From assembly GCF_021462415.1 (NCBI RefSeq), contig NZ_JAKEDS010000002.1:992001-1056000 (forward strand): a stretch of 64,000 nt of DNA, given 5' to 3'. Made by a program: the position numbers and the translations under genes. Under the pieces are notes generated by a model. It was not told where the DNA came from and did no database searches. It was given only the letters and a program-made list of their open reading frames with translations. Below are positions 18,475 to 26,416 of the stretch, in pieces (within the stretch, counting starts at the first letter, position 1; each line of letters starts with the position of its first letter). The stretch is from Rhodohalobacter sp. 614A (GTDB lineage: Bacteria > Bacteroidota > Rhodothermia > Balneolales > Balneolaceae).

Positions 18475-18764
18475 TAAAATCGGTTGCTAATAGGGTTTAT
18501 AATTCTTCTTTTTGATAACGGAATAGCTTAATAATATAACGAAATTTGAAGTGAGTACCCACTTGTTCCAATCTTCATTCTTCTTTTGAAGATTTTACCG
18601 GTTAGAAATCCTGACATTCGAATGATACACCTTGAAAATTGACAGATACCATCTGTAATTATATCATTGAATTCAATACTTTCATGTTTGTACAAATCAG
18701 TTAATGATCATCTTTATAGATAATAATTTTTGAATAGATTCACCGTCTAAGCAGTAAGCCCGTG

Positions 18765-19337
18765 ATGGAAAAAGCCAACACCACTCAATTATTGATTCGC
18801 CTGAAAAAAGGCGAAGAAGGCATTTACGACAAGTTATATCCTCTGATCTACGATGAGTTACGCCGGATGGCCTATTCTCATATGAAACGTCAGTCGCCCG
18901 ACCATACCCTTTCCAGGACTGAATTGGTTCACGAAACCTATTTAAAGATGATTGATCAGGATGTAATCGACTTTAATGACAAAAGTCATTTTTTGGCGAT
19001 TGCATCTCGTTGCATGAGGCAAATTCTTATCGATTATGCAAGAAAAAAACATGCGGATAAACGAGGCGGAAAGGAAAAAGATCAAACTTACATCGATGAA
19101 ATCTTCAGCAGATCACAACATAAAACGGCTGAATTAATTGATATTGATTCTGCTCTGGACAGATTAGCCAATATGAATGAACGCCTTTCTGATGTTGTCG
19201 TGATGCGATTCTTTGGAAAAATGACCATTCATGAAGTGGCTGAAGCTCTGGAAATATCCGAAAGCACAGTTAAACGCGACTGGTCAAAAGCCAGGGGTTG
19301 GCTGTACAAAGAATTGAAAGGACGTTTCAAAGTTTAG
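18765..19337 (+). CDS. ECF sigma factor, TIGR02999-type
   Basis: About 190 residues from ATG at 18765 (a GTG lies one codon upstream). It is an extracytoplasmic-function type sigma-70 factor that redirects RNA polymerase. Region 2 spans about residues 10-95 (YDELRRMAYSHM, then SHFLAIASRCMRQILIDYAR, a hallmark of the TIGR02999/Sig-70_X6 group), and region 4 about 130-185 (VVMRFFGKMTIHEVAEALEI, STVKRDW). No anti-sigma gene is adjacent. Instead a Ser/Thr kinase with TPRs follows 68 bases later on the same strand, an arrangement seen in several phyla, suggesting phosphorylation-linked control. Confidence 0.92.
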   Translation: MEKANTTQLLIRLKKGEEGIYDKLYPLIYDELRRMAYSHMKRQSPDHTLSRTELVHETYLKMIDQDVIDFNDKSHFLAIASRCMRQILIDYARKKHADKRGGKEKDQTYIDEIFSRSQHKTAELIDIDSALDRLANMNERLSDVVVMRFFGKMTIHEVAEALEISESTVKRDWSKARGWLYKELKGRFKV

Positions 19338-19405
19338 TGATAGATTTCTTCAATTATTACGCATTATATAAGGACGCTTCATCTTTATAAACTTCTGCAT
19401 TTTTT

Positions 19406-22015
19406 ATGAATACATCGAATTGGAAAAGGGTTGAAACCATTGTTGATCAGGTTTTAGAAATGCCCGAAAGTGAACGAAAAACCTTCATTGATAGCAAATG
19501 TGGCGATGATGCTGAACTCAAAGGAGAAGTTACTCAGTTTCTACAGTCGATTTATGAATCTGAGGGCTGGCTTGAGGAACAGGACGTTTACAGACAAGAG
19601 ATGTTAAATGAAATTGCCGAAGAAATTGAGCAGATTTCTGCTGAAAATGTATTCATTGGCAAAAAAGTAGGCTCCTACACAATCCGTGAAAAAATTGCTG
19701 AAGGTGGAATGGGAGCTGTTTATTTGGCGGAACGGTCCGATGATGAACTGGATCATCGTGTTGCCATTAAAATTATTCAGCATGGCCGTGCAAGCCGGGA
19801 AAATTTGCGGCGCTTCAAACGAGAGCAACAGATTCTTGCCGGCATGAACCACCCTTCTATTGCCCGGTTTTTTGATAGTGGTACTACGGCAAACGGTGTC
19901 CCGTATATTATCATGGAGTACATTGACGGAATGCCCATCACCGATTACTGCGAGAAACATCAATGCTCAACACAGGAAAAAATCACCTTGTTTGAGGAGG
20001 TTCTTGAAGCCGTCCGATACGCTCATGAAAACTTAGTCATTCATCGGGATCTTAAACCGGGTAACATTTTTATCGACAAAAGCGGAAATGTCAAAATCCT
20101 TGACTTCGGTATCTCAAAACTGATTGAAGATGATTCTGAAATTATCACACAAACCGGCGCACGCCTGTTGACACTCCGGTATGCTGCTCCCGAACAAATC
20201 CGTCAGGAGAATATCACAACGGCTACAGACTTGTATGCACTCGGTATAATTTTTTATCAACTGCTGGCCGGAATAGGTCCGTTTGATATTGATGAACTAT
20301 CACGGTTTGAAACCGAACAAGTCATATTGAATGAGGAAGCTCCGCGTCCTTCTTCCCGAATGGATTCACCTTCATTAAAAAGAGAGCTTTACGGTGATTT
20401 GGATGCCATTGCTCTTAAATCAATTCGAAAAGAACCGGATCAGCGATACCGCGTAGCCAATGAATTTTTAAGTGATCTGGAAAACTACAAGTATGGCCTT
20501 CCGGTTTCCGCTCATGCCGATTCGCTAAAATACCGCAGTAAAAAATTCATTCGTCGCCATCAAAAGGCAATGTATATCGCCTCCGGAGTTTTGACCCTTG
20601 TCATTCTACTCACCGCGTATTACACAAACCAGATTGCACAACAGCGCGATTTCGCTCAACTTGAAGCCGAACGGGCTGAAGAGGTCACGAATTTTCTGAT
20701 TTCGATGCTGGAATTAAACAATCCCAGTGAAAATTCCGGAGATGAAATAACCATTAACGATGCCTTAAACCGGGGCATTCAGCTGTTGGAACAGGATAAC
20801 CTATCCGCATTGAACAGGGCCACTATTTTGGGTACGATTGGGTCCATTCAATTCAATAATGGTGAGATCGAACAGGCAGGAATCAATTTGCAGAAAGCAA
20901 TGGCTTTTGTAACTGACTCCCTTCCCCGCCAAACAGAAAAAAGTTTGGCTATTGGAACACAATACTCCGAGTGGCTGGAAACGGTTGGAAATATGGAAGA
21001 ATCGGACCGTTATTTCCAACTAACCGATTCTCTTTTCCGGGTGCACAAGCTGGATCATTCAATGAGCTATATTGAACATGAATTGAATTACAGCGACTAT
21101 TTAATGGAAGTTGGCAGGCACGAACAAGCTCTTTCCGTTTTATCTGATTTGGATAACGTACTTGTTCAGAACTTCAACCTGAATTCTCCTGATGAAATCG
21201 ACATTCTGGCAAATGTCTACAACAATCGGGGGCGCGCTTATAAAAATATTGGGCAAAACCAGGCCGCTCTTGACAATCTTGAACAGGCACTGACACTTAA
21301 GCTCAGAGTTTTTGATGAAAATAATACACGAATTGCCACTCTCTACCACAATATGGGAGTTGTTTATGCTACCGTTGCGGATTTTCCAAAGGCCTATGAA
21401 ATGACTCAAAAAGCGTATGAAATTCGGTTAAAAGTGTATAGCCCTACCCACCAACTTGTTGGCTCTTCATTGCAAGCTTTGGGAAATATTGCTCTGGAAC
21501 TGGGTAACTACGAAGAAGCGTATAACTATATTCAAAAATCCGTGGAAATCAACAAACAGCAACACGGCGCCACACATTTCAGATATGCTTTAGCCTTACG
21601 CGAATATGCAAAAGTTTTAAGCGAAACCGGGCGACATGATGAAGCCAGAGAACAAATTGCCGAAGCCTCTTCCATCATAGAAAACAACTATGGTGCAGCT
21701 CATCCCTATTTTGGTTATATGATGATTACCTATGGCGAAGTAGAGTACAACGACGGGGAGTATAAGAAAGCCGGTGAATTTGGAGAAAAAGCCATCACTA
21801 ATTTTCAACAAAACTTTGATGCTCAACATCCCAATATCGGAAGAGTGTATGCAGCACAGGGAAAATATGCTTTGAAGAATGAGGATTATGAAGAAGCAGA
21901 TTCACTACTCAAAAAATCTGTTGAGATCCTGAAACAACATTATGATGCATCCAATCCTTTTTTAATAGAGGCGGACTCACTTTTGCTCGTAAACAGACAA
22001 CTTTTAGAAGATTAG
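19406..22015 (+). CDS. membrane Ser/Thr protein kinase with TPR sensor region
   Basis: An 869-residue Hanks-type kinase. After an N-terminal helical region (1-85) comes the kinase domain (about 90-370): Gly-rich loop IAEGGMGAVY, catalytic Lys122 in VAIKII, HRDLKPGN with Asp215, DFG at 233-235 and AAPEQ. A single membrane segment at about 388-407 follows, then a C-terminal region of about 450 residues, probably extracytoplasmic, made of tetratricopeptide repeats (units such as ALDNLEQALTLKLRVF and YNYIQKSVEINKQ). All catalytic residues are present. It is coupled to the upstream ECF sigma factor gene and likely works with it as a signalling pair. Confidence 0.93.
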   Translation: MNTSNWKRVETIVDQVLEMPESERKTFIDSKCGDDAELKGEVTQFLQSIYESEGWLEEQDVYRQEMLNEIAEEIEQISAENVFIGKKVGSYTIREKIAEGGMGAVYLAERSDDELDHRVAIKIIQHGRASRENLRRFKREQQILAGMNHPSIARFFDSGTTANGVPYIIMEYIDGMPITDYCEKHQCSTQEKITLFEEVLEAVRYAHENLVIHRDLKPGNIFIDKSGNVKILDFGISKLIEDDSEIITQTGARLLTLRYAAPEQIRQENITTATDLYALGIIFYQLLAGIGPFDIDELSRFETEQVILNEEAPRPSSRMDSPSLKRELYGDLDAIALKSIRKEPDQRYRVANEFLSDLENYKYGLPVSAHADSLKYRSKKFIRRHQKAMYIASGVLTLVILLTAYYTNQIAQQRDFAQLEAERAEEVTNFLISMLELNNPSENSGDEITINDALNRGIQLLEQDNLSALNRATILGTIGSIQFNNGEIEQAGINLQKAMAFVTDSLPRQTEKSLAIGTQYSEWLETVGNMEESDRYFQLTDSLFRVHKLDHSMSYIEHELNYSDYLMEVGRHEQALSVLSDLDNVLVQNFNLNSPDEIDILANVYNNRGRAYKNIGQNQAALDNLEQALTLKLRVFDENNTRIATLYHNMGVVYATVADFPKAYEMTQKAYEIRLKVYSPTHQLVGSSLQALGNIALELGNYEEAYNYIQKSVEINKQQHGATHFRYALALREYAKVLSETGRHDEAREQIAEASSIIENNYGAAHPYFGYMMITYGEVEYNDGEYKKAGEFGEKAITNFQQNFDAQHPNIGRVYAAQGKYALKNEDYEEADSLLKKSVEILKQHYDASNPFLIEADSLLLVNRQLLED

Positions 22016-22235: not shown

Positions 22236-22832
22236 TTAACTCTCCAATCCAACTAATATAATCATTCCATTTTCTTTGTTTTGGAAAATGGCGATGATAG
22301 ACTTCTCCTTTTCTTTTACCTCTGCTAATTCTTCACAGAAGTTCCCACAATCAATTTTTTTTGAGTTAAGTAAACTATAGCCATCACTTTGGCTGCCTGT
22401 CAAAATGGGAGTACATCCACTACAGGTAGTATATATTGGTATCTTAAAAGTTACATCATCAACTTTTGTTTTAGAGACCACTTTAATCAACTCGTAAAAG
22501 AATGGAGGGGAATCAATTATTGGAGGATCATATTTTTTCTTCTTTACAATCAGATGATATCTATATCCCCATTCATAGTCGAAGTTTTCAACAGGGGAAT
22601 AATTACGGGTCCATTTCTTAGTACCGATCTCTGATCCTTCCTGAGTGAAATACTTAAAATGAAATCCTTCGAACCCTCCTATCCACCGGTAATGATCTAC
22701 ATACATTTCCATCAACCCGGTCCCATCTGAACGAAAATTTATAGTTTCTAAAGATCCAACTCTGTTATCCTCACACGAACTCAGAAATAAAAGAGATGTG
22801 ATTAAAAAAAGACTAATGAAAAAATTTCTCAT
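22236..22832 (-). CDS. DUF4377-like lipoprotein
   Basis: A 198-residue lipoprotein with lipobox LFLSSC (Cys about residue 20). The central region (about 60-120) has the DUF4377 pattern: KKWTRNYSPVENFDYEWGYRY, then LIVKKKKYDPP and a FFYELIKVVSK end. The last 75 residues are an additional part with a CSGC motif and two more Cys (KIDCGNFCEEL), perhaps disulfide-bonded in the periplasm. DUF4377 occurs beside HslJ-like domains in envelope proteins; its function is unknown. A broken tandem copy lies directly downstream. Confidence 0.7.
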   Translation of the reverse strand: MRNFFISLFLITSLLFLSSCEDNRVGSLETINFRSDGTGLMEMYVDHYRWIGGFEGFHFKYFTQEGSEIGTKKWTRNYSPVENFDYEWGYRYHLIVKKKKYDPPIIDSPPFFYELIKVVSKTKVDDVTFKIPIYTTCSGCTPILTGSQSDGYSLLNSKKIDCGNFCEELAEVKEKEKSIIAIFQNKENGMIILVGLES

Positions 22833-23008: not shown

Positions 23009-23917
23009 ATGAGTTCTGCAACAGTACCCGACTTTCATCAAACCATTCCGATTGACCAGATTGGCGTCGAAGAAAGGGTTTCGAGACTGAATAAGCGAAG
23101 TATCAAAAAAGAGTCGAAAGTTCAGGGTTTAAAATTGGCGTTGAGTATGATTGACCTCACCACGCTGGAAGGAAAAGATTCCGAAGGGAAAGTTATGCAG
23201 CTCTGCAGTAAAGCAAAACAGCCGTATGCTGCCATGCCTGATTTACCCACTGTTGCTGCAATTTGTGTGTATCCGAATATGGTATCCACTGCAAAAAAGG
23301 CTCTGAAAGGTACGGATATCAATGTAGCCAGCGTGGCAACAGCGTTTCCCAGCGGAATGGCAACCCTGCAAGTAAAACTGGACGATACAAAATTTGCCGT
23401 TGATCAAGGCGCCGATGAGGTTGATATGGTGATTTCCCGCGGAGAATTTCTGAAAGGCAATTACAATTTTATTTTTGATGAGATCTCCGCCATTAAAGAA
23501 GCCTGTGGCAATGCCCACCTGAAAGTAATTTTAGAAACCGGCGAGCTGGAAACGTATGAGAACGTCCGTAAAGCCAGCGATATCGCGATGTATGCTGGAG
23601 CCGATTTCATTAAGACATCCACCGGGAAAATTTCCCCCGCAGCAACTCAACCCGTTACCCTTGTAATGCTGGAAGCAATCCGTGATTTCTATCGTGAAAC
23701 CGGGCGAATGGTTGGTATGAAACCGGCTGGAGGAATCCGGAAAGCAAAAGAAGCGTTGCAGTATCTCGTTATTGTAAAAGAAACATTGGGTTCAGCGTGG
23801 CTGACTCCCTCCTATTTTCGATTTGGAGCCAGCTCGTTAGCGAATGACCTGTTGATGCAAATCGTTAAACAGGAAACGGGTGTGTACCAAAGCAGTTATT
23901 ATTTTTCAAATGATTAA
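23009..23917 (+). CDS. deoC: deoxyribose-phosphate aldolase
   Basis: A 302-residue class I aldolase that splits 2-deoxyribose 5-phosphate into acetaldehyde and glyceraldehyde 3-phosphate. The Schiff-base Lys202 lies in DFIKTSTGK, and the second active-site Lys in GMKPAGGIRKAKEAL near residue 242. The substrate-binding CVYPNMV (near 92) and EVDMVISRGEF segments are present. It is longer than the E. coli enzyme because of a 45-residue N-terminal extension. It heads an operon with two ALDH genes; the acetaldehyde released is a plausible substrate for the ALDH that follows. Confidence 0.96.
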   Translation: MSSATVPDFHQTIPIDQIGVEERVSRLNKRSIKKESKVQGLKLALSMIDLTTLEGKDSEGKVMQLCSKAKQPYAAMPDLPTVAAICVYPNMVSTAKKALKGTDINVASVATAFPSGMATLQVKLDDTKFAVDQGADEVDMVISRGEFLKGNYNFIFDEISAIKEACGNAHLKVILETGELETYENVRKASDIAMYAGADFIKTSTGKISPAATQPVTLVMLEAIRDFYRETGRMVGMKPAGGIRKAKEALQYLVIVKETLGSAWLTPSYFRFGASSLANDLLMQIVKQETGVYQSSYYFSND

Positions 23918-23985
23918 ATCGCTCGGCGCTAAGCGCTGTGCCTGTGGTGAAATAAACAGTTGACCACTAACAACTATCAAATTTT

Positions 23986-25515
23986 ATGTCTAAGACAAAA
24001 GACAAAATATCTACCGAAACGACGAATGGTGCTCCAAAACCGACCTCTCCGAATGCCGATTTGAAATTGGATTTTGCTTCGTTTTGGGAATACAGTTCGG
24101 CTCCTGAAAGTAGTGATTTTGTTGAGATCAAAGAAAAATACAATCATTATATAGATGGAGAATTTGTAGAACCGGAGAAAGGGCGCTACATGAAATCCAT
24201 CAATCCGGCCAACGAAGAAGTTCTTACAGAATTTGCTGAAGGAACCACCGAAGATGTTGATAAAGCTGTTAAGGCTGCGCGAAAAGCGTATGACAAAACC
24301 TGGTCGAAAATTTCGGCAAAAGAGCGTGGCAAGTTTGTCTATCGTATTGCAAGAATGATCCAGGAACGATCTCGTGAGCTTGCCATCACTGAAACGCTAG
24401 ACGGCGGGAAACCGATTCGTGAATCCCGTGATGTGGATGTACCGTTAGCCGCCGCCCACTTCTTTTACTATGCAGGCTGGGCCGACAAATTGGAATATGC
24501 TTTTCCCGGACGTAAACCGGAACCGCTTGGTGTATGCGGACAAATCATTCCCTGGAATTTTCCCCTGTTGATGTTAGCCTGGAAAATTGCTCCTGCTCTT
24601 GCAACCGGAAATACGGTTGTGCTAAAACCGGCAGAAACCACTCCTGTCACCGCACTTAAATTTGCCGAGATTTGCAGTGATGCCGGCCTTCCGGACGGAG
24701 TTGTAAATATTGTAACGGGAGCGGGTCAGACAGGATCAGCTATTGTCAATCATCCCGATGTAAATAAAATTGCTTTTACTGGTTCAACCGAAATTGGAAA
24801 AATCATCCAAAAAGCTTTGGCCGGAACGGAGAAGAAATACTCACTTGAACTGGGCGGTAAGGGACCGAATATTGTTTTTGAAGATGCTCCTTTAGATCAG
24901 ACTGTTGAGGGAATTATCAATGCGATTTTCTTTAACCAGGGCCATGTTTGCTGCGCTGGTTCGCGTCTCTTGGTTCAGGAAGGAATTGCAGAACGTTTGA
25001 TTGATAAACTGAAAGACCGAATGGAAACATTGATCGTCGGCGATCCTTTGGATAAAAATATCGACATCGGTGCCATCAATTCAAAATCTCAGTTTGAAAA
25101 AATAAACGAATATTTAGATATCGGAGTGAACGAAGGCGCAGAAATGTATCAAAGTAAATGCGAACTTCCGGAAACCGGATATTTCTGCAGGCCCACAATT
25201 TTTACGGGAGTTGCCCAGAGTAACCGAATTGTTCAGGAAGAGATTTTTGGACCGGTTCTCACCATTCAAACCTTCCGAACTCCGGACGAAGCCATTGAAA
25301 AAGCCAATAACACACCGTACGGTTTAGCCAGCGGAATCTGGACAGATAAGGGATCTAAAATTTTCAAAATCGGCCAACAAGTTCGCTCCGGTGTAATGTG
25401 GTCGAACACGTACAATAAATTCGATCCAACATCTCCTTTTGGCGGTTACAAAGAAAGTGGAATCGGGAGTGAGGGCGGACTTCAAGGATTGTATCCATAC
25501 GTAAAGCTGAATTGA
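23986..25515 (+). CDS. aldehyde dehydrogenase, catalytic subunit (ALDH16-like)
   Basis: A 509-residue NAD(P)-dependent aldehyde dehydrogenase. Catalytic residues are intact: Asn191 in PWNFP, Glu288 in LELGGKGPN and the nucleophile Cys322 in NQGHVCCAGSR, with the usual spacings. A 45-residue polar extension precedes the fold. It follows deoC by 68 bases and precedes a non-catalytic ALDH gene by 37. Together the two ALDH genes encode about 796 residues, the size and order of domains of ALDH16, in which one active and one inactive ALDH domain are fused. Likely oxidises acetaldehyde from the DeoC reaction. Confidence 0.92.
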   Translation: MSKTKDKISTETTNGAPKPTSPNADLKLDFASFWEYSSAPESSDFVEIKEKYNHYIDGEFVEPEKGRYMKSINPANEEVLTEFAEGTTEDVDKAVKAARKAYDKTWSKISAKERGKFVYRIARMIQERSRELAITETLDGGKPIRESRDVDVPLAAAHFFYYAGWADKLEYAFPGRKPEPLGVCGQIIPWNFPLLMLAWKIAPALATGNTVVLKPAETTPVTALKFAEICSDAGLPDGVVNIVTGAGQTGSAIVNHPDVNKIAFTGSTEIGKIIQKALAGTEKKYSLELGGKGPNIVFEDAPLDQTVEGIINAIFFNQGHVCCAGSRLLVQEGIAERLIDKLKDRMETLIVGDPLDKNIDIGAINSKSQFEKINEYLDIGVNEGAEMYQSKCELPETGYFCRPTIFTGVAQSNRIVQEEIFGPVLTIQTFRTPDEAIEKANNTPYGLASGIWTDKGSKIFKIGQQVRSGVMWSNTYNKFDPTSPFGGYKESGIGSEGGLQGLYPYVKLN

Positions 25516-25552
25516 AATCTATTTATTGATAACTGTTAACTGATCACTGAAA

Positions 25553-26416
25553 ATGTCTGACAGACTCGAAATTCTAAAAACTTATAAAACATATGTTGGC
25601 GGAAAATTCCCCCGGAGTGAATCCGAACGGATCTATCGGGTAGAAGATTCAAAGGGAAATCATATTGCCAATGCCTGCCGTTGTACCAGAAAAGATGTGC
25701 GAGATTCCGTTGTAGCGGCACGATCGGCTTTTGGCGGATGGAGTGGTCGGTCGGCCTACAATCGCGGACAGATTCTTTATCGGATTGCAGAAATGCTTGA
25801 GGGACGTAAAAACCAATTTGTTAACGAACTGGAACTCCTCGGAGAGAAAAAGAAAAATGCACGCGCGGAGGTTGAACTGGCTATTGACCGCCTGATCTAT
25901 TTTGCCGGCTGGACAGACAAAGTCAGCCAGGTATTTGGAACGGTGAATCCTGTTGCCAGCTCACACTTTAATTTCAGTATGCCTGAGCCAACCGGAGTGG
26001 TTGGGATTTTGGGGTCCGATGAATCACCACTTCTCTCTATCATTTCTCTCATCGCTCCTGTCATAGCCAGTGGAAATACTTGTGTTGTAATAGCTTCTAC
26101 AAAAAATCCATTATCGGCTGTGAGCTTGGGCGAAGTTTTACATTCCTCGGATGTTCCCGGCGGAGTCATCAATATTCTGACAGGTTATCGGAATGAAATG
26201 GTTGAAAATCTTACTTCTCACATGGATGTGAATGCTATTTTTAATGCTGTTGATAATCCCGAAACGCGGAAACAAATCGATGAGAATGCATCTATCAGTG
26301 TGAAACGAGTTAAGCATTATGCCCAATCGGACTGGAGTGACAAAAAGCACGAAACACCATATTTGATTCTCGATTTTATGGAAACGAAAACTACATGGCA
26401 CCCCGTTGGTACGTGA
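25553..26416 (+). CDS. non-catalytic ALDH-fold protein (ALDH16 C-domain-like)
   Basis: A 287-residue protein aligned with the N-terminal NAD-binding half of aldehyde dehydrogenases (YVGGKFPRSES start, RGQILYRIAEMLEGRK, GVVGILG, IASGNTCVVIAS, GGVINILTGY near 205). The PWNFP Asn is replaced by a Ser-Asp-Glu segment, the Lys of the usual VLKP is displaced, and the protein ends before the catalytic Glu and Cys regions. It therefore cannot catalyse the ALDH reaction. The reading frame is clean and long, which argues against a pseudogene. I infer a structural partner of the preceding ALDH, equivalent to the dead domain of ALDH16. Confidence 0.85.
   Translation: MSDRLEILKTYKTYVGGKFPRSESERIYRVEDSKGNHIANACRCTRKDVRDSVVAARSAFGGWSGRSAYNRGQILYRIAEMLEGRKNQFVNELELLGEKKKNARAEVELAIDRLIYFAGWTDKVSQVFGTVNPVASSHFNFSMPEPTGVVGILGSDESPLLSIISLIAPVIASGNTCVVIASTKNPLSAVSLGEVLHSSDVPGGVINILTGYRNEMVENLTSHMDVNAIFNAVDNPETRKQIDENASISVKRVKHYAQSDWSDKKHETPYLILDFMETKTTWHPVGT

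Follow-up and report, generated by a model that had tools for sequence, protein, structure and literature searches.

The locus analyzed here raises the question of what a complete aldehyde dehydrogenase (ALDH) and a short, catalytically dead relative of it might do together next to a deoxyribose-phosphate aldolase. The three genes lie in the window, the whole 64,000-nucleotide stretch of Rhodohalobacter sp. 614A DNA that was analyzed. A sequence-only reading had proposed that the two ALDH proteins are a split ALDH16, one subunit active and one dead, beside deoC, and that proposal is supported where it was examined. We think that the locus is probably an operon for the final steps of deoxyribonucleoside breakdown, encoding DeoC and a two-subunit acetaldehyde dehydrogenase of the ALDH16 type with a dead beta partner. 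ALDH16 is already known as one long chain; what the genome sequences appear to add is a two-gene form beside deoC, in the window genome and in many other bacteria.

Gene organization

The features of the locus are as follows.

23009..23917, + strand: deoC, deoxyribose-phosphate aldolase, 302 aa (TIGR00126 equivalog, above cut-off)
23986..25515, + strand: alpha subunit (catalytic) of an ALDH16-type aldehyde dehydrogenase, 509 aa (highest-scoring solved structure 6mvr_A, LsALDH16)
24556..24558, + strand: codon of alpha Asn191, in PWNFP (Asn in 9/9 split catalytic and 8/8 fused N-terminal rows)
24847..24849, + strand: codon of alpha Glu288, the general base, in ELGGK (Glu in 9/9 split and 8/8 fused rows)
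24949..24951, + strand: codon of alpha Cys322, the catalytic thiol, in GHVCCAGSR (Cys in 9/9 split and 8/8 fused rows)
25516..25552, + strand: 37-base gap separating the two ALDH genes (from the sequence)
25553..26416, + strand: beta subunit (non-catalytic), 287 aa (full-length homology to the C-terminal domain of ALDH16)
25940..25990, + strand: beta-hairpin of beta (strands 130-133 and 138-146), the presumed oligomerization flap (from the secondary structure of the model)
26381..26404, + strand: C-terminal strand of beta, E277-P284, ETKTTWHP (invariant residues; matching strand absent from alpha)

The coordinates of the three open reading frames and the 37-base gap were all correct on re-check, and the ALDH that it called complete has all three of the residues Asn191, Glu288 and Cys322. 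The DeoC of the window scores 195.8 bits against TIGR00126, above the equivalog cut-off of 117.3, and is the only match to that model in the genome. Together the two ALDH proteins amount to 796 residues (509 + 287), a size that had been likened to ALDH16 and that compares with 767 aa in the LsALDH16 chain. The alpha and beta reading frames differ, and the locus does not encode the single polypeptide that is characteristic of ALDH16.

The catalytic subunit

As had been suggested for both proteins, each is best matched by sequence to ALDH16 (6mvr/6mvu). LsALDH16 (PDB 6mvr, 6mvs, 6mvt and 6mvu) is homologous to both parts, the catalytic subunit aligning to its residues 12-475 and the short protein to 501-766. 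Among solved structures, alpha matches 6mvr_A with 563.9 bits in total (504.5 for the first stretch), and the next other protein reaches 437.4. Alpha also has an APES-type N-terminal motif that is common to fused ALDH16.

A tree of catalytic parts separates the split and fused proteins together from the other ALDHs used (92/86). With those ALDHs as the outgroup, whose long branches were flagged, the fused proteins (16 rows, 93/98) and the split ones (28 rows, 98/94) form sister clades; the split clade consists of 27 rows plus L254, the split catalytic subunit of genome G819. In a shorter alignment, the fused N-terminal rows nest among the split rows, a weakly supported placement (83/49). These comparisons appear to put the catalytic domain of alpha nearer to ALDH16 than to the other ALDH families.

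The end of alpha is unusual. Among 137 catalytic subunits, 131 stop 9-14 residues after the motif SGxGxEGG; two complete ALDHs continue there with another strand (LKTVYVA and VKSVWVA). In 33 fused genes, by contrast, 23-55 residues lead from this motif to the C-terminal domain. From the tails of the 137 catalytic subunits, the terminal strand that alpha lacks is the kind of strand that ends beta. The predicted structure of alpha itself was poor (pLDDT 70.3, from a 23-row alignment).

Apparent loss of the catalytic domain from the short protein

Residues 9-286 of the short protein align with residues 501-766 of 6mvu_A at 146.6 bits, and the next solved ALDHs score about 97 bits. The match to the Pfam Aldedh profile covers positions 4-232 of 461 (136.2 bits). 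In a tree, the short proteins and the C-terminal domains of fused ALDH16 form one clade of 31 rows (100/100), apart from four other ALDHs. It seems, then, that the extra non-catalytic C-terminal domain of ALDH16 is present here as a separate protein.

The short protein has no equivalent of Glu288 or Cys322, and the loss of the PWNFP Asn that had been noticed is confirmed by SDE in place of PWN. The same losses recur in relatives: in the second part, the catalytic Cys and the Lys of KPAE are missing from 19/19 split and 12/12 fused rows, a likeness between this system and ALDH16, and the Asn of PWN is retained in 2/19 split and 0/12 fused rows. The second part thus appears to be without catalytic and NAD-contact residues, as in ALDH16.

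The AlphaFold2 model of beta is confident (pLDDT 90.8, pTM 0.88). Its top Foldseek match is 6mvr, and it superimposes at 1.4-2.1 Å over 268-279 residues on the 50 entries listed by VIA-align, three of which are ALDH16. Because ALDH16 is tied by Z with many other ALDHs in VIA-align, the fold alone does not single out ALDH16; the sequence and Foldseek do. The sequence-only reading had the short protein ending before the catalytic Glu and Cys. This description stands for the sequence but fails as a simple cut, since the last strand appears to be the C-terminal strand of complete ALDHs. A simple truncation was rejected in favor of an excised catalytic domain: the model alignments, from which end points and aligned lengths only were taken, extend as far as the C-terminus of complete ALDHs, and the comparison of tails agrees. 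The short protein looks like an ALDH minus its catalytic domain, with the terminal strand (E-x-KTTWHP) retained.

Probable purifying selection on the short gene

A short, catalytically dead gene beside a complete one might have arisen by tandem duplication of the ALDH gene and be decaying toward loss. The two proteins are only weakly similar (35% identity), and evolution is faster in the short gene than in its neighbors (pN/pS of 0.12-0.29, compared with 0.08-0.17 for deoC and the catalytic gene, with pS near saturation in these comparisons), as might be expected of such a duplicate. These same pN/pS values are low and are accompanied by no stop codons. They indicate that the short gene is probably under purifying selection, and they back the earlier argument from its clean reading frame. 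Moreover, 52 positions are invariant across 51 aligned rows of the short protein, among them N132, P133, F139, N140 and F141 of the hairpin and E277, K279, T280, W282, H283 and P284 of the terminal strand. The sequence-only reading would have accepted a degenerating duplicate if the short protein were closer to ordinary ALDHs and not conserved beside this ALDH in relatives. Instead, it belongs with the fused ALDH16 C-terminal domains in the fully supported clade, and its position next to this ALDH is conserved in the order, in the phylum and beyond. With a confident predicted fold, and no instance among 394 genomes of a short part without a catalytic part (see below), we reject decay of a duplicate as extremely improbable.

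Distribution and gene order

The short protein is matched in 86/97 genomes of the order, with a best E value per genome of at most 8.9e-79; these matches, like the bit score on LsALDH16, go beyond chance. The 11 other genomes of the 97 gave no match; one of them, G078, is of the same genus as the window and has neither part. Regions were examined from 40 of the 86 matching genomes, representing all 29 genera with a match. The order deoC, catalytic gene, short gene, which the sequence-only reading had suggested looking for, is present in 39/40 of them, the remaining one being cut by a contig end, and it recurs in other phyla. The two ALDH genes are separate in these regions, with a median gap of 21 bases and 6/39 overlapping when gene starts are set at the aligned start.

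The same order was found in 12/12 regions from the phylum of genome G439 and, in the remainder of the phylum sample, in 10/15 split regions; in the other 5/15, the short gene lies apart from the catalytic gene and deoC. The loci of the best 80 of 584 relatives, which overlap partly with the order set, include 59 with all three genes in this order, 5 with a catalytic gene and no deoC, 8 with no complete catalytic gene and less than 1.6 kb of upstream room, and 8 with no catalytic gene despite room.

Co-occurrence extends beyond linkage. Among 394 genomes of the phylum, the short part is present in 71 and the catalytic part in 70, the difference being G179, which has a fused gene; none of these genomes yielded one part alone. 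The short gene does not adjoin the catalytic gene in 13 genomes, and in 13/13 the catalytic gene is elsewhere in the genome. A linkage tree of 145 chosen rows (137 different; L039 and L040 are among those omitted) contains 127 linked, 13 unlinked and 5 undecided rows, and the unlinked state requires 5 changes, at least 3 of them forced by starred branches.

In several lineages the short gene lies away from the ALDH gene, and its product is modeled with a confident fold as a lone chain. It could accordingly be a free-standing pseudoenzyme (a regulator, scaffold or ligand binder) that acts elsewhere and is only co-transcribed with the ALDH. We regard this as unlikely: the two parts co-occur even when unlinked, the homologous domain shares a chain with the catalytic part in LsALDH16, and the short protein carries the terminal strand that is missing from the active subunit.

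Among the 13 unlinked genomes, 6 have deoC near the catalytic gene; in the other 7 it was not seen in the flanking sequence covered, and some of these loci are cut by contig ends. The tie to DeoC therefore looks looser than the tie between alpha and beta. Nor is it special to the split form, a correction to the sequence-only reading: deoC does adjoin the split genes, but it also precedes fused ALDH16 in 5/5 and 25/26 regions (30/31 in all, the exception being cut by a contig end). Counting both forms, genomes with deoC ahead of the ALDH16 gene belong to three or more phyla.

A proposed two-subunit acetaldehyde dehydrogenase

DeoC cleaves 2-deoxyribose-5-phosphate to glyceraldehyde-3-phosphate and acetaldehyde, and we propose that the two-subunit dehydrogenase oxidizes the acetaldehyde to acetate. 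The active site would be on the 509-residue alpha subunit. The 287-residue beta subunit would be a conserved dead partner that keeps the NAD-binding fold and the oligomerization flap and no longer has the catalytic domain or the residues that usually contact NAD.

Classic ALDH homodimers and tetramers (ALDH1, ALDH2, BADH) have the same NAD-binding fold and flap as beta. In those enzymes each subunit is complete and active, whereas here one partner lacks the catalytic domain and the other the terminal strand. Beta could fill the place of the second subunit of the classic dimer, or of the C-terminal domain in fused ALDH16, and could supply the C-terminal strand that alpha lacks. We infer a physical complex, and the expected assembly would be alpha2-beta2, resembling the classic tetramer. 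A review describes two chains of fused ALDH16 as mimicking the classic ALDH tetramer (PMC8160307), and the difference here is that two genes and two chains would take the place of one.

The assignment of acetaldehyde as the substrate follows the gene neighborhood, and gene order is no proof of substrate. A plausible though less probable alternative is that the complex is real and acts mainly on another aldehyde (glyceraldehyde-3-phosphate, an aldehyde derived from deoxyribose or a broader range of toxic aldehydes), with acetaldehyde as a side substrate. The 7/13 unlinked genomes in which deoC was not seen near the catalytic gene would fit such a role, and the table of one review lists the substrate of ALDH16 as unknown (PMC10650815). 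That deoC precedes split and fused genes alike, in at least three phyla, points instead to acetaldehyde, which glycolysis does not take up, unlike the other product of DeoC. The two products are as given in a paper on DeoC catabolism (PMC6365646), in whose available text "aldehyde dehydrogenase" occurs 0 times and no ALDH16-type enzyme is named. A literature search of titles and abstract openings recognized neither a split ALDH16 nor a deoC-ALDH16 link, which does not imply absence from print.

A bolder version of the acetaldehyde proposal, which we consider doubtful, is that DeoC and the active and dead ALDHs form a physical metabolon. Beta would both complete the quaternary assembly and dock DeoC, with acetaldehyde channeled directly to the active site. 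Fused ALDH16 would then be the same arrangement in covalent form, and the whole ALDH16 family, human ALDH16A1 included, would have its ancestral role in nucleoside breakdown.

A two-protein ALDH16 in many bacteria offers a route to learning the role of a poorly understood family. In the natural two-gene form, the dead part can be deleted, titrated or swapped with the active part untouched, which is impossible in a fused protein. The deoC neighborhood, in both forms and several phyla, supplies a concrete hypothesis for the ALDH16 substrate, acetaldehyde from deoxyribose-5-phosphate. The human protein, ALDH16A1, is described as lacking the catalytic triad and as associated with gout (PMC10650815), and we speculate that the deoC link is perhaps the evolutionary reason for its proposed tie to purine metabolism. 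Further genes accompany deoC and fused ALDH16 in some clusters: RbsD, a ribokinase and a sugar ABC transporter in Caballeronia, and a DeoR regulator and RbsD in Sinorhizobium.

The ALDH pair and its relation to ALDH16

Three genes make up the locus:
23009-23917, + strand, deoC, its product above the curated equivalog cut-off for DeoC
23986-25515, + strand, complete, catalytic ALDH (alpha)
25553-26416, + strand, short 287-residue ALDH-fold protein (beta), starting 37 bases past the ALDH gene

The alpha-beta pair is best described as a sister form of ALDH16 that is split in two. Among solved structures, alpha matched LsALDH16 (6mvr_A) with 563.9 bits in total (437.4 for the next other protein), and the best stretch for beta was LsALDH16 501-766, the C-terminal domain (146.6 bits; about 97 for the next ALDHs). 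A tree built on the region common to all sequences, with four other ALDHs as the only outgroup, placed the C-terminal domains of 12 fused proteins in one clade with 19 short proteins (support 100/100), and nine split and eight fused catalytic parts in another (89/96); in a longer alignment the split and fused catalytic parts were sister clades. Because of the structure matches and the clade shared with fused C-terminal domains, beta is, judged from sequence, the homologous counterpart of the ALDH16 C-terminal domain. The sequence-only reading, that the active and dead halves of ALDH16 occur here as two genes, is thus supported. A recent copy of the neighbouring ALDH is ruled out as the source of beta by the same LsALDH16 match and clade. 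The split form lacks the single chain of ALDH16, but shows its remaining features that could be tested.

The catalytic Cys and the Lys of KPAE (an NAD contact in active ALDHs) are absent from all 19 short proteins aligned, and the Asn of PWN is retained in two. An AlphaFold2 model of beta (51 sequences) was confident (pLDDT 90.8, pTM 0.88). Foldseek ranked ALDH16 first, and VIA-align superposed many ALDHs, including ALDH16, with similar Z. Since the model spans complete ALDHs from first to last residues (e.g., 4nmj 7-481, 272 aligned), we read beta as an ALDH that has lost its catalytic domain and retained its final strand. The subunit ends agree with this reading: 131 of 137 split catalytic subunits stop 9-14 residues past SGxGxEGG, beyond which two complete ALDHs continue with LKTVYVA and VKSVWVA, and the short subunit ends in E-x-KTTWHP. 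Invariant positions in the 51 rows include E277, K279, T280, W282, H283 and P284. Beta probably provides the terminal strand absent from its catalytic partner.

Conservation and separation of the two genes

The suggestion that the dead half is under selection is supported by the absence of stops and by pN/pS of 0.12-0.29 in five comparisons (deoC and alpha, 0.08-0.17), which should be read as upper-end and not as exact ratios, because silent sites are near saturation; beta evolves faster than both neighbors. Beta is present in 86 of 97 genomes of the order (72 of 77 with completeness >=90% and contamination <=5%). It is also kept beside the same ALDH in relatives, as the earlier reading had asked: deoC-alpha-beta lies on one strand in 39 of 40 fetched regions of the order (median alpha-beta gap, 21 bases), the remaining one ending at a contig edge, and recurs in all 12 regions taken from G439's phylum (record L137, titled Neomarinimicrobiota) and in one Nonomuraea record. 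Among the best 80 of 584 relatives in the genome collection, 59 loci have deoC-alpha-beta, eight have no complete alpha and little upstream room, eight have no alpha despite upstream room, and five have alpha without deoC. In L039 (3351-4878; G090, a close relative) the catalytic ALDH is divided between two frames, through either a genuine frameshift or an assembly error. The short protein of L096, a contig titled Streptomyces griseus MAG, nests within Chitinophagaceae, and this record is likely mislabelled.

Across 394 genomes of the window's phylum, the short part occurs in 71 and the catalytic part in 70, the same sample in both counts as judged from the listed genome handles; the two sets are identical but for G179, in which the gene is fused and under the E cut. 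Beta lies apart from alpha in 13 genomes, and alpha is elsewhere in all 13 (four of these alpha matches are incomplete, either truncated at a contig end or spread over two frames). The genes are about 6.4-6.6 kb apart in genomes G330 and G360 and on separate contigs in G109, G128 and G204; deoC was seen near alpha in six of the 13. Mapped onto a tree built from 145 short proteins, the unlinked state takes five changes, and starred branches force at least three of these. The persistence of both genes after separation argues that alpha and beta act together in trans. Loci with beta outside the operon and alpha elsewhere include L189-L193, L098, L101, L118, L121, L131-L133 and L142.

The deoC association and a proposed function

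Fused relatives also follow deoC. Of 299 genomes in G440's phylum (record L157, titled Proteobacteria), 27 contain the domain. In 26 it belongs to a fused open frame 779-871 residues long; the only split case is G440, around which that search was centred. Five genomes of the window's phylum also carry the fused form. A same-strand deoC lies 5' of 25 of the 26 and of all five fused genes (median gaps, 17 and 7 bases). Fused clusters carry a DeoR regulator and RbsD in Sinorhizobium, and RbsD, ribokinase and a sugar ABC transporter in Caballeronia. Because deoC precedes both fused and split genes, which are sister clades, the tie seems common to both bacterial forms and to predate the split or fusion. 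Thus, the proposed association of the split form with deoC recurs but is not peculiar to it. The component parts and single-chain ALDH16 are known; we recognized neither a split ALDH16 nor a deoC-ALDH16 link in the literature searched, coverage of which was partial, so novelty in print is unproven.

DeoC converts deoxyribose-5-phosphate to acetaldehyde and glyceraldehyde-3-phosphate (PMC6365646). The alpha-beta enzyme would then oxidise acetaldehyde to acetate. In LsALDH16, the C-terminal domain takes the place of the partner subunit in the classic ALDH dimer, and the dead subunit would replace that partner here. Two ALDH16 chains mimic the classic ALDH tetramer (PMC8160307). The expected assembly would be alpha2-beta2; we infer the complex, its stoichiometry and its substrate. 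The window's DeoC match is the only one in the genome; of the genome's eight Aldedh matches, two are at this locus. A pyrimidine-nucleoside phosphorylase gene on a different contig could feed the DeoC pathway.

Just 5' of the operon, an RNA polymerase sigma-like ORF precedes an ORF for a Ser/Thr kinase whose C-terminal half is rich in repeats (18762-22015; by eye from translations), and a small lipoprotein-like ORF (22236-22832, - strand) matches DUF4377 (45.8 bits). A SPOR-domain lipoprotein gene lies immediately 3' of beta, and at L177 1293-2500, 3' of a fused ALDH16 gene, two ORFs have SPOR-like ends by eye.
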